Shown: positions 49,890 to 55,621 of the stretch, piece by piece
Position numbering within the stretch: position 1 is the stretch's first letter
Layout: the number at the start of each line of letters is the position of its first letter
Source: Cyanobacteria bacterium MAG CAR3_bin_5
GTDB taxonomy: Bacteria > Cyanobacteriota > Cyanobacteriia > PCC-6307 > Cyanobiaceae
DNA length: 64,000 nt
Reading direction: 5' to 3'
Assembly (NCBI GenBank): GCA_026709085.1
Contig: JAPOTR010000004.1
Location: 1-64,000, forward strand
Notes under the pieces: model-generated
Database searches by the model: none
What the model was told of the DNA's origin: nothing
What the model saw: only the letters and a program-made list of their open reading frames with translations
Program-made: the position numbers and the translations under genes

Positions 49890-50366
49890 AGAGGAAGCCT
49901 GTGCAGAGTTCATTGTTCAAGAACGTTGCCGTGACAAGCCACAGTGTCCCCACTGTAAATCGGGGAGATCTACAAGGTTACTGGAGCCATGGCCTTCAAA
50001 TGTGGTGGGCGCCTCAAGCATTTCGGTGTACGCACTGGCACGGTGACGGCAGGCTCCACACTGCCTCTTCAAACCTGGTTGCTGGCCTTCTACATGGTGG
50101 CCAGGGCCAGAAAGGTATCAGTAGCGTCCAGCTCGCCAAGGAATTGGGAGTTACACAGAAAACTGCTGGATTCCTTCAGCAGCACATCAGGGAGGCTTGA
50201 TAATAATGGTCAGGATCTTCTGACTGGCGAAGTGGAAGTGGATGAGGCCTATCTCGGCGGCAAGGAAGACAGCAAACACCATGACAAGAACCATGGTGGT
50301 GGCCGTGGTGCTGTAGGCAAACAGCCTGCGCCGGGACTCCTGACCTACGCAGCGCTTACTGCTTGA
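49890..50366 (+). pseudogene. IS1595-family transposase, several frameshifts
   Basis: Three plus-strand frames together rebuild an IS1595 (ISXO2-like) transposase. The zinc-ribbon start is EEACAEFIVQERCRDKPQCP followed by HCKSGRS. Then, in a new frame, YKVTGAMAFKCGGRLKHFGV and RTGTVTAGSTLPLQTWLLAF follow. A further shift gives GISSVQLAKELGVTQKTAGF, and a last shift gives LLTGEVEVDEAYLGGKED, carrying the first catalytic acidic residues, then GGGRGAVGKQPAPGLLTY. At least three frameshifts make it inactive. The catalytic C-terminal half is missing. The left end may begin near 49795. Confidence 0.85.
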
Positions 50367-51349: not shown

Positions 51350-52158
51350 GAGCCTGCCGTGGTCTGTTGTTGAGGCTTGTCAGCCTTTGCGGTGGGGCCA
51401 GCACCCTGGCGCCAAAGCATCTTGTCTTCCCGATCACGATCTAGGCTCAGGACTGATAACCAGAAGAGTGTGGCCGCCAGGAGGACGGCAGAGTAGAAAA
51501 TATGAGCACAGGGTCGTAGTGGCAATAGGTCGCCAGTCCTTCAGCTTGGCAAGCCGGTTCTCAACCTTATGGCGCATCTTGTACAGCCCCTTGCTGTAAG
51601 GGAGCCTCTTGTTGCGGTTCCGTCCGGGCGGAATGCAGGGAGTGATGCCTTGCTCCGTCAGCAGGGCGCGGATCTTGTTGCCGTCATACCCCTTTCCAAT
51701 CAAGGCGGTTGCACCGGTGAAGTCGCTGCATTGCCCTGCGCTGAGGTGAAGCGGACAGGTCGTCCTTGCCGTCGCAGACCACGTGCAGCTTGCTGGTCAG
51801 TCCCCCTTTTGAGGCTGGAGCCGTGCGATGGGCTGTGACGTAGGTGGCATCGATCATCAGCCCCGCTTCCGGCTGGCGCTGTCGCATCGGGACAACTCGG
51901 AGAAGAGCAACTGAGACTCCCTTCTCCGACCAGCGGCGAAGTGGTTGTAGAGCGTTTTGCAGGGTCATAGGCGGCTGGGGCCATCCACCGCAGGCCGTGA
52001 CGCTGCACGTAGATGATGCCGCTCAACACCTTGCGGGCATCCACACGGCTCACCCCGCGAGACTTGGGGAAGAAGGGCTTGATCCTCTCAAGCTGTTCCT
52101 CACTCAGCCAGAACAAACCCCTCCTGAAGACTGAAGATCTCTTGGGGTTCGCCCTCAC
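51350..52158 (-). pseudogene. IS5-family transposase, multiply frameshifted
   Basis: Minus strand, in order: FRRGLFWLSEEQLERIKPFF and PKSRGVSRVDARKVLSGIIY, the N-terminus. After a frame change, RRWSEKGVSVALLRVVPM then LMIDATYVTAHRTAPASKGG, with the first catalytic aspartate, follow. Then come GRPVRF in one frame and MIGKGYDGNKIRALLTEQGI with PCIPPGRNRNKRLPYSKGLY in another. After a last shift, CAHIFYSAVLLAATLFWL, the C-terminus, appears. Several frameshifts and missing segments show it is dead. The C-terminal residues closely match the fragment at the start of the window. Confidence 0.85.
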
Positions 52159-53304: not shown

Positions 53305-54177
53305 TCAGATGGCAAGATCAAAAGGCAGATCACTGATGTCCCGTAGTCGGTCTCCGTCAATCATGGTGGATAGCATCTCCGCCTGATCTTCGCAACTTGG
53401 CAGTGCCTCGCAGACTGTCTTCAACTCATCCAAGGCAATATGGTAAACGCAATCTAAATCTCCAGTACCCAGCGCCAGAGAGGCAATGCGCATCGGTAAA
53501 GGTTCAGCAGTCACAGCAACGATGTGGGGCAGTCGGCCTTTTCTATTGCGGATCAGATTGAGGGCCTCCGTTCGGGTATTCTGTGAGCGGTCACTCCGAA
53601 TTGTCCATTTACAAGAGATACTGGCGTGTAAAAAAGGCAGAGCAGAACGGTTTGATTCCAGGAATGATGTCAGGGTTGCCAGGTCTTGACGATTCAGAAC
53701 CACCGCCTGCCCATTGACGTCGTCACGAGATACGGTGCTGCGGGCGACAATAATGTCTGGTGTCACAAGATAATCATATCCGAGGGCTGTTGACAAGTCT
53801 CTATTGTCTCGTACGAGATCATCAAGTACTTTGAGGTGACGGTACTGTGCAAATCCGGAAATCTGCGTCTGCGACGTCAAATACTTCCATTTTCCTGGCC
53901 TCATGTGGCTTATCGCTGTGAACGCATGTTCAATAAATTTACAGGTGAGTTTCTCAAACAGAGCACCCGCTCTCTGCCCTGGAATTGATCCCGACTTCTG
54001 TCGGGGAATCCGTAGCGCTTCGACAATACCGTTGGCAATGAGAACACTGGAGCGACTGCCGCAATCTGCAAAATTCGGGTACGTCATGTCTTCTCTATCC
54101 GCTCCAGCAGAAAAACGGATCACCTGTTGCCCCAGCTTGGCATGATAATCACTGCGCATCTCTCCGAGGGTAGCCAT
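53305..54177 (-). CDS. Type II restriction endonuclease, NgoMIV-like (predicted GCCGGC)
   Basis: 290 residues, similar in length to NgoMIV (about 286). The match is close by memory: LHASISCKWTIRSDRSQNTR, ALNLIRNRKGRLPHIVAVTA, SLALGTGDLDCVYHIALDEL and the C-terminal DISDLPFDLAI. Active-site residues correspond: E75, D141 (in TPDIIV), the S-C-K at 188-190 and E204 (in TRTEAL). The NgoMIV site is GCC^GGC (G^CCGGC by convention), so this enzyme should cut there. It lies just downstream of the methyltransferase on the same strand with a 6-base gap. More AT-rich than neighbours, fitting transfer. Confidence 0.85.
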   Translation of the reverse strand: MATLGEMRSDYHAKLGQQVIRFSAGADREDMTYPNFADCGSRSSVLIANGIVEALRIPRQKSGSIPGQRAGALFEKLTCKFIEHAFTAISHMRPGKWKYLTSQTQISGFAQYRHLKVLDDLVRDNRDLSTALGYDYLVTPDIIVARSTVSRDDVNGQAVVLNRQDLATLTSFLESNRSALPFLHASISCKWTIRSDRSQNTRTEALNLIRNRKGRLPHIVAVTAEPLPMRIASLALGTGDLDCVYHIALDELKTVCEALPSCEDQAEMLSTMIDGDRLRDISDLPFDLAI

Positions 54178-54183
54178 AGTTCG

Positions 54184-55125
54184 CTACGGAATCATTGTCA
54201 GTTGAAGATCCTGATTGATCCTCGTCTGCGACTGCTGGGCGTAGACCGGATTCAATTCAACGAGAATTGCCCTGCGGTTCGACTGGGCCGCCACAACTCC
54301 GGTGGTCCCGGATCCGGAAAACGGATCAAGGATAACGTCACCCGGCTGACTCCCCAGCAGGATGCACCGTCTGGCCAATTCTCTGGGGAAGACTGCCGGA
54401 TGGGGCACTCCACTGGAATCGGGACCCAGGATCCAGTAGTTTCTGAGATTGGCTCCGCTCTCCTCTCGCATGGCTTGATTGTTGTAGTAATAGCTCGGAT
54501 TCTTTGCGAACAAAAACAGTTCTTCGGTGGCGTTGGAGGGTCGATTTCTGACACTTTCCGGCATGGGAGCCTTCTTGATCCAGGTGATCTTCGACCTCAG
54601 CAGCCAGCCGTCCTCTTGCAGGGCAAACACAACCCGCCATGGCAGACCCATCAGGTCCCGATCCTTCAGACCCCAGCAGTTGGGCACCTTGCAGTTGCGC
54701 TGCTGAATCAACTTCTTCGTATTCCCCACCAAGGCATTGGGGCCACTGCGTCCTGTCCCACCGTTACGGGCATAGCCGTCACCGACGTTCAGCCACAGGG
54801 TCCCGTTGTCCCGTAGCACACGACGAACCCCCTGGAAGACCGCCATCAGATTCGACACGTATTCCTCGGGAGACAACTCGGCGCCAATCTGGTTCCCATG
54901 GTCGTAGTCCCGCAGTCCCCAGTACGGTGGCGAGGTGACGCAACACTGAACGGTCACCGGCTCAAGCTGTCCCAGCACCTGACGGCTGTCACCCACCAGG
55001 ATCCGCACGGCATCGCCGGCCAGCGTGTTCTGGGTGGGATTGCCAATGGTCAATGAACACCCCCGGGAACCGTTCACGTCTTGCTTGGCCCTATTATGCT
55101 GCTCAACATCAGCCATGGTCCGCAT
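54184..55125 (-). CDS. DNA methyltransferase, beta-class, TSPPYW type
   Basis: Up to 313 residues. Motif IV TSPPYWGLRDY (residues 64-74 of the longest form) precedes motif I DPFSGSGTTGVVA (267-279), the beta-class order. TSPPYW is typical of N4-cytosine and some N6-adenine enzymes. Because the partner's probable site (GCCGGC) lacks adenine, N4-cytosine is the likelier product if the pair is cognate. The start is uncertain: ATG at 55125 or 55116 overlaps or abuts the divergent HNH gene; TTG at 55053 or GTG at 55008 would fit the usual N-terminus better. Confidence 0.9.
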   Translation of the reverse strand: MRTMADVEQHNRAKQDVNGSRGCSLTIGNPTQNTLAGDAVRILVGDSRQVLGQLEPVTVQCCVTSPPYWGLRDYDHGNQIGAELSPEEYVSNLMAVFQGVRRVLRDNGTLWLNVGDGYARNGGTGRSGPNALVGNTKKLIQQRNCKVPNCWGLKDRDLMGLPWRVVFALQEDGWLLRSKITWIKKAPMPESVRNRPSNATEELFLFAKNPSYYYNNQAMREESGANLRNYWILGPDSSGVPHPAVFPRELARRCILLGSQPGDVILDPFSGSGTTGVVAAQSNRRAILVELNPVYAQQSQTRINQDLQLTMIP

Positions 55126-55621
55126 GGGGCAGGTTCTTGTCCTGAATGCCTCCTATGAGCCCCTCAACATCACAAGCTGGAAGCGGGCTGTGGTCATGAT
55201 GCTCAAGGGCAAGGCGGAAAGTCTGGAGCAGGACACGGTTGTTGCCCACAGGAACCTGCTGGTTCCCACCGTAATCCGTCTGCGCCAGTACGTCTGCATT
55301 CCGTTCAAGGAGATCCCCCTCACCCGCCGCAACGTGCTCCAGCGGGATCTACACACCTGCCAGTATTGCGGCTACAAGGGAGAGCGACTTTCCGTCGATC
55401 ATGTGCGCCCCCGCAGCCGGGGCGGCCAGCACGCCTGGGACAACGTGGTGACGGCCTGTATCCGCTGCAATGTGTATAAGGGGAGTCGCACACCTCGGGA
55501 AGCCGGCATGACCATCGCCTGCAGGCCGCGCCGCCCCGTCAGTTCGCTTTACTTTGAAGCCTCACGGCAGATTCGCAACGGCCGGCGCCAGGAATGGCAG
55601 AAATACGTCATCGGGGTTTGA
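55124..55621 (+). CDS. HNH endonuclease family protein
   Basis: About 165 residues from ATG 55124. The start MGQVLVLNASYEPLNITSWK and RAVVMMLKGKAESLEQDTVV are typical of a cyanobacterial HNH family. The nuclease core has CQYCGYKGERLSVDHVRPRS followed by RGGQHAWDNVVTACIRCNVY KGS; the four cysteines bind zinc, and D-H, N and the later residues form the HNH motif. It is divergent from the methyltransferase with the start codons overlapping or nearly touching. Not obviously a defence gene, since members are widespread in cyanobacteria. Confidence 0.85.
   Translation: MGQVLVLNASYEPLNITSWKRAVVMMLKGKAESLEQDTVVAHRNLLVPTVIRLRQYVCIPFKEIPLTRRNVLQRDLHTCQYCGYKGERLSVDHVRPRSRGGQHAWDNVVTACIRCNVYKGSRTPREAGMTIACRPRRPVSSLYFEASRQIRNGRRQEWQKYVIGV

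Follow-up and report, generated by a model that had tools for sequence, protein, structure and literature searches.

A probable NgoMIV-type restriction–modification system with a beta-order amino-methyltransferase in a cyanobacterial genome

A restriction enzyme and the methyltransferase that protects the host from it must agree on the site they read, or the cell dies. In the NgoMIV system of Neisseria gonorrhoeae, the site is GCCGGC and the protecting mark is 5-methylcytosine (m5C), which is reported for NgoMIV (PMC12114051) and, at GCCGGC, for NgoAIV (PMC6789123). One published N4-methylcytosine (m4C) call at GCCGGC, in Sinorhizobium meliloti, is weak, with an average frequency of 0.06 (PMC11711589), and the remaining published GCCGGC entries found are m5C. 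Among the matches listed from the literature on NgoMIV, GCCGGC and m4C, and in their excerpts, none describes an N4 enzyme as the partner of an NgoMIV-type nuclease. Within the nuclease, Q63 contacts the outer G:C pair of the site (PMC4652773), while core reading is assigned to an R-(D/E)R motif; in the related literature on PfoI, the motif holding the acid that bridges both cytosine N4 atoms coincides with the R-(D/E)R motif of NgoMIV (PMC6344858).

The second group of described enzymes that bears on the present locus consists of m4C methyltransferases for CCCGGG, a site that has the CCGG core in common with GCCGGC. Some of these enzymes are paired with XcyI-type nucleases, the site of XcyI being CCCGGG. 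The enzyme of phage AH14a protected DNA against SmaI, and its target is inferred to be the outer C, the first base, of CCCGGG; its homologue M.Pac25I makes m4C at the same site (PMC4936722). Thioflexothrix psekupsii is reported to have M.TpsD3III, a beta-class m4C methylase with CCGG as its site (PMC5578853); this enzyme may be a relative, with a shorter core site, of the methyltransferase described here.

The window, which is the whole stretch of DNA that was analysed (positions 1-64000), contains a nuclease gene (R) and a methyltransferase gene (M) that lie head to tail on the minus strand, with M upstream of R. The features of the locus are as follows.

53305..54177, minus strand: R, NgoMIV-type restriction endonuclease gene, 290 aa (evidence from PF09015, 1fiu, residues and dN/dS; predicted to cut G/CCGGC)
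54178..54183, minus strand: six-base gap from the M stop to the R start; the same gap in 7 further intact genus loci
54184..55125, minus strand: M, beta-order TSPPYW amino-methyltransferase gene, 313 aa as called (PF01555; predicted m4C at GCCGGC)
55124..55621, plus strand: divergent HNH gene, a syntenic neighbour (PF01844, E=2.5e-14)
49989-50366 and 51700-52158: transposase remnants of IS1595 type and IS4/5 type, left of R, flanking recR

Among the seven further loci, the six-base gap in L016 holds if the aligned start at 1471 is right. Both genes of the window are unbroken open reading frames, as the initial annotation had stated. That annotation had also called R an NgoMIV-like nuclease with the NgoMIV catalytic set, and the profile and structure comparisons agree. 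R matches PF09015 (NgoMIV_restric) with E=1.5e-98 and 329.9 bits against a cut-off of 23.2, covers positions 1-275 of the 275 in the profile, and is thus a full-length family member; it matches the NgoMIV structure 1fiu with E=9.4e-72. In the alignment, residues E75, D141, S188-K190 and E204 of R (the SCK at 188-190 included) fall on E70, D140, S185-K187 and E201 of NgoMIV, and Q68 and R194-S195-D196-R197 fall on the base-reading Q63 and R-S-D-R 191-194. The likeness to NgoMIV therefore extends over family, full length, and both catalytic and base-reading residues, and the order of methylase then nuclease is that of the C5-paired plasmid loci of NgoMIV type (L002-L008). R is only 45-51% identical to eight relatives from outside the genus, in an alignment of those eight. 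Among the best 80 of 495 loci in cellular genome contigs, its closest relatives belong to Candidatus Synechococcus spongiarum and related MAGs.

Unlike the NgoMIV system, in which the methylase is a C5 enzyme, R does not adjoin a PF00145 gene; its neighbour M matches PF01555 (N6_N4_Mtase) with E=5.1e-47, and its predicted product is m4C rather than m5C. TSPPY (motif IV) stands at residue 64 of M, near the N-terminus, and FSGSGT (motif I) at residue 269, near the C-terminus, which gives beta order. The description of the neighbour as a TSPPYW beta-class enzyme of non-C5 type is borne out by this order and by the family match. The start of M is uncertain by about 24 residues: some homologues in the genus start about 24 residues later, and a TTG at codon 25, about position 55053, may be the true start.

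When 60 genomes were searched, R was found in 9 of the 10 genus genomes (the window's own included) and in none of the 50 outside the genus; the genus genome with no nuclease match is G007. In seven further intact genus loci M lies directly upstream of R, with identities to the window of 76-92% for R and 80-91% for M. Over seven genus comparisons for each gene, dN/dS against the window ranges from 0.08 to 0.15 in R and from 0.08 to 0.17 in M (two comparisons with Chloroflexota were saturated), and both genes are under purifying selection. The same neighbourhood recurs in six Chloroflexota and two Planctomycetota loci, plus L263, L264 and L271; the methylases of L263 and L264 are identical to those of L044 and L048. 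Because the pair is kept in seven further genus genomes and in both of these phyla, under purifying selection, M and R are very probably cognate, so that the pairing on which the initial annotation made its proposal depend is now supported on sequence grounds.

The system is dispensable, since both genes are broken in G006, one of two copies of the pair is broken in G003, and G007 has no match. The broken pair of G003 (L022) adjoins the HNH gene; the intact pair (L014) lies elsewhere and is close to the version in L040. This arrangement suggests re-acquisition or movement of the pair. Outside the genus, the nearest pairs belong to Chloroflexota MAGs, and some of these MAGs come from series that also include genus members (jk18 and SB06xx). 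The series come from sponges, and transfer of the pair between symbionts of one host is plausible.

The initial annotation placed the two genes in an otherwise decaying island, a description that fits the left flank, with its transposase remnants (the IS1595-type remnant scores just below its Pfam cut-off), but not the right. From the HNH gene through RF-1 and on to about 59 kb, the right side is syntenic in five of the six genus contigs compared, and the shared block spans 53.3 to about 59 kb of the window. Three of these contigs (L039, L041 and L042) run 5 kb past R and have no match to the window there, which puts the insertion sequence remnants outside the shared block; two others (L037 and L038) stop shortly beyond R. 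For L040, the alignment covers the pair but not its flanks, matches elsewhere to the window's left flank being limited to two short segments (68-71% identity); the pair therefore has a different location in that contig. The HNH gene at 55124-55621 adjoins the pair in five of the seven further intact genus loci. It was considered as a component of the system and rejected: it is divergent, and L013 and L014 keep M and R together with no such neighbour found beside them.

The source draft genome, that of a cyanobacterium living in sponges, measures 2.37 Mb, in an assembly that is 95.5% complete, and holds 23 PF01555 matches at E<=0.001, of which 20 are over the cut-off, together with two PF00145 matches. 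Twenty-three PF01555 matches are many for a genome of this size. Three of them fall within 4 kb on another contig (11335-15045; L029, L030), and one of this cluster is 38% identical to M.

The initial annotation predicted GCCGGC as the site of R, and residue conservation in 120 aligned nucleases with various partners supports that prediction. D141, K190, R197, E204 and R230, the last being the counterpart of NgoMIV R227, are invariant. Q68, R194, S195 and D196 deviate in one or two rows each and are kept in all 16 beta-paired rows, and the position of NgoMIV E70 deviates in 10 of the 120 rows, none of them beta-paired. Since the residues for base reading and catalysis hardly vary, whichever type of partner the nuclease has, GCCGGC can be predicted for R on sound grounds. 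There are 2446 such sites in the genome; the window has 83 against 73.4 expected (ratio 1.13, a slight over-representation), and the site is abundant in all 10 genus genomes, G007 included. Avoidance of GCCGGC, sought in the window and in these 10 genomes as a sign of activity, was not seen, which means that R, if active, needs a protector; the counts say only this. A separate site, GGGCCC, is strongly under-represented in the window (18 found, 47.9 expected), and its rarity may point to a past or present restriction system of GGGCCC type.

The nearest characterised relatives of M that were found are the CCCGGG m4C enzymes (XcyI-paired, Pac25I and AH14a), which share with it PF01555, the beta order with TSPPYW, and 41-48% identity. 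In particular, four plasmid methylases that have XcyI-type nucleases as partners share 41-42% identity with M, and the phage methylase AH14a_p05 has 48.5% identity over 84% of M. Since characterised relatives make m4C at CCCGGG (PMC4936722), m4C is likely for M as well, in line with what the initial annotation predicted. GCCGGC has a G at the position proposed for the AH14a enzyme, and the choice of base therefore cannot be transferred as it stands. The preferred prediction, on the analogy of Cfr9I-type enzymes, is the first C of the CCGG core.

M differs from the XcyI-paired methylases in several respects. In a methylase tree that took in L177 and 11 other viral loci hand-picked from 80, M falls within a separate clade of 29 rows, apart from those enzymes, with 100/100 support; in the alignment its segment between motifs IV and I is different; and the members of its clade are paired with NgoMIV-type or HNH nucleases. 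Six of the 339 plasmid records with relatives of M were opened, and in four of the six the methylase gene directly precedes an XcyI-family nuclease gene, while in two it does not. A virus contig (L177, 2-808) carries a methylase of the M clade with 74% identity to M over 243 residues. This contig begins within the methylase gene and has no nuclease downstream of it; the enzyme is possibly a phage shield against GCCGGC restriction.

A C5 methyltransferase was named in the initial annotation as the classical partner of NgoMIV-type nucleases, which holds for plasmids and viruses but not for cellular genomes. Of 17 matches in plasmid and phage records, 11 were opened; in nine the nuclease adjoins a C5 gene, and in two it is solitary. 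The latter two are conjugative plasmids (L011, 2920-3765, and L012, 3025-3834), with no methylase annotated beside the NgoMIV-type nuclease and with transfer or resistance genes upstream. Among 53 viral loci, many of which are near-identical, the partner is a C5 enzyme in 49, a long TSPPY methylase in two and none in one; the last (L164) was dropped for a short nuclease although a C5 gene is near. The best 80 of the 495 cellular loci, a selection that leans towards the window's protein, comprise 50 with a long TSPPY methylase, 14 with a short beta enzyme (six of these from the window's own genus), eight with a C5 enzyme, seven with no callable partner and one dropped. Several of the seven partnerless loci show, by eye, pieces of the long type.

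Draws of genomes gave a similar range of partners. The nuclease was found in 20 of 400 Chloroflexota genomes, with 11 long alpha-order, four beta and four C5 partners and one without a partner, counts that include split genes. This draw had G060 as its centre and included G064, known beforehand; without both, beta partners number two of 18. In a draw of 386 cyanobacterial genomes, made up without the other genus members known to carry the nuclease, it was found in the window's genome and in one other, the latter with a C5 partner. An amino-type TSPPY methylase thus adjoins the nuclease in 64 of the best 80 of 495 cellular loci and in 15 of the 20 Chloroflexota genomes. A swap peculiar to this locus is therefore not supported; routine pairing with N4-type enzymes, which the initial annotation had named as grounds for refutation, is seen in genomic terms, provided that those enzymes make m4C as predicted. 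Beta pairing in itself is widespread and not unique to the window's locus.

In the cellular genomes examined, NgoMIV-type nucleases are paired most often with the long TSPPY methylase (for example, L052, 3593-5008). In Chloroflexota and others, these loci resemble that of the window in having the same nuclease family beside an amino-type methylase. Unlike M, the long enzymes have 391-537 aa and place motif I before motif IV (alpha order) in 51 of the 52 examined, and they match M only locally, over 52-109 aa. Alpha-class m4C enzymes are known (PMC3425538; PMC5578853), and we infer that the long and short amino-type partners alike make m4C.

For the nuclease tree, 143 loci were reduced to 119 rows plus the window by collapsing sequences that were identical or had the same last 240 residues, whereby the solitary nuclease of L012 became part of the C5 row L004. 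The tree excludes L080 and L164, in neither of which a nuclease ORF of 200 aa was found. On the 120-row tree, the three partner classes need at least four changes, and on a hand-picked 50-row tree (49 of the 120 rows plus L271) they need three. Holding the beta-paired nucleases together on the 50-row tree is rejected (AU p=2.8e-7), and with it a single origin of beta pairing; the beta partner has thus joined NgoMIV-type nucleases at least twice. On the same tree, the beta-paired nucleases of L110 (Planctomycetota) and L271 (from the Planctomycetota draw) nest among C5-paired nucleases, and the window's group sits among those paired with long TSPPY methylases.

Members of the M clade were found in 7 genomes of a 400-genome Chloroflexota draw, likewise centred on G060 and with G064 known beforehand, and in 9 of 392 Planctomycetota genomes. 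The partner is an NgoMIV-type nuclease in four of the former and two of the latter, and an HNH-type nuclease ORF (about 140-250 aa) that overlaps the methylase gene in one Chloroflexota and seven Planctomycetota genomes, one of the seven (L272) recognised by eye only. The methylase of L266 lies at a contig end, and that of L267 is split in two and has no recognised partner. The methylase gene precedes and overlaps the HNH ORF at L265, L268-L270 and L272-L275, mostly from the Planctomycetota draw; all three of the HNH ORFs examined match Pfam HNH, and the one that was searched gave weak McrA matches. Because the clade also pairs with HNH nucleases, GCCGGC is not proven for the clade as a whole. 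Partners seem to have been exchanged on both the nuclease and the methylase sides.

The pair is read as a Type II restriction–modification variant with modular partners. With a probability of about three in four, judged from sequence comparison, M and R would form a working system in which R cuts unmodified GCCGGC and the adjacent M protects it by N4-methylcytosine. R would cut at G/CCGGC, by homology to NgoMIV, as a tetramer holding two sites. M, adjacent and probably translationally coupled, would protect the host sites by N4 methylation of a cytosine, with the leading C of the CCGG core as the most probable target. In R, the N4 amino groups of the core cytosines are expected to be read by the acid of the R-(D/E)R motif, and core N4 methylation should for that reason block cutting directly. 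On its relationship to the CCCGGG m4C enzymes, M would belong to a separate clade that took on GCCGGC, a direction of site change that we infer.

It is unlikely that M is not cognate, that is, a CCCGGG-type or other methylase beside a nuclease that is silent or protected by another enzyme: M and R are adjacent across three phyla and in two separate nuclease lineages, R is under purifying selection, and M stands in its own well-supported clade (100/100) with its own segment between motifs IV and I, even though its relatives outside the clade are CCCGGG enzymes (PMC4936722) and its clade member on the virus contig L177 has no nuclease downstream. The same reading draws on the 23 PF01555 and two PF00145 matches of the genome. 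Both C5 methylases lie on other contigs and are 29% identical near full length, and at most 33% in partial matches, to the plasmid partners of NgoMIV-type nucleases, whereas 59 of 61 C5 genes beside such nucleases match the plasmid set at 38-90%; the case for a C5 enzyme as the true protector is thereby weakened. The C5 partners of two viral loci (L117 and L118) are equally remote, at 27%, so low identity alone falls short of a full exclusion, and an assembly that is 95.5% complete could be missing a further protector. M is the best candidate protector in the genome.

That the two genes are cognate yet both read another site, such as CCCGGG or a degenerate form, is equally improbable. The kinship of M with CCCGGG enzymes (PMC4936722) and the 45-51% identity of R to the eight aligned relatives from outside the genus are consistent with such a shift; however, the equivalents of NgoMIV Q63, R191, S192, D193 and R194 are kept in 16 of 16 beta-paired rows, and a second nuclease lineage, nested among C5-paired enzymes, has acquired a partner from this M clade. 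Least likely is that the operon is a relic in which M acts as a general regulator or methylates adenine at a site with no more than an overlap with GCCGGC. Models of CcrM and other m6A enzymes do match M, far below their cut-offs, and the left flank is decayed, but GCCGGC has no adenine, the characterised relatives of M make m4C (PMC4936722), and dN/dS is well below 1 for both genes.

Beyond the locus, a somewhat better than even case can be made for a wider history of the Type II system favoured here. The NgoMIV-type nuclease would have kept GCCGGC while its protector was swapped repeatedly among C5, beta and long alpha enzymes, and the beta clade would have moved between CCCGGG and GCCGGC and found partners in at least two nuclease families unrelated to each other (NgoMIV-type and HNH); the window's version would be common to sponge symbionts of different phyla, suggesting transfer within the host. 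As enzyme and protector must agree on the site, swapping partners without a change of site is an evolutionary puzzle. With one nuclease family, three protectors, apparently one site and repeated swaps supported by trees, the viable intermediate of such swaps becomes testable. Likely m4C methylases for GCCGGC would also be useful reagents, and they may help to read the methylomes of uncultured Chloroflexota, Planctomycetota and sponge symbionts.
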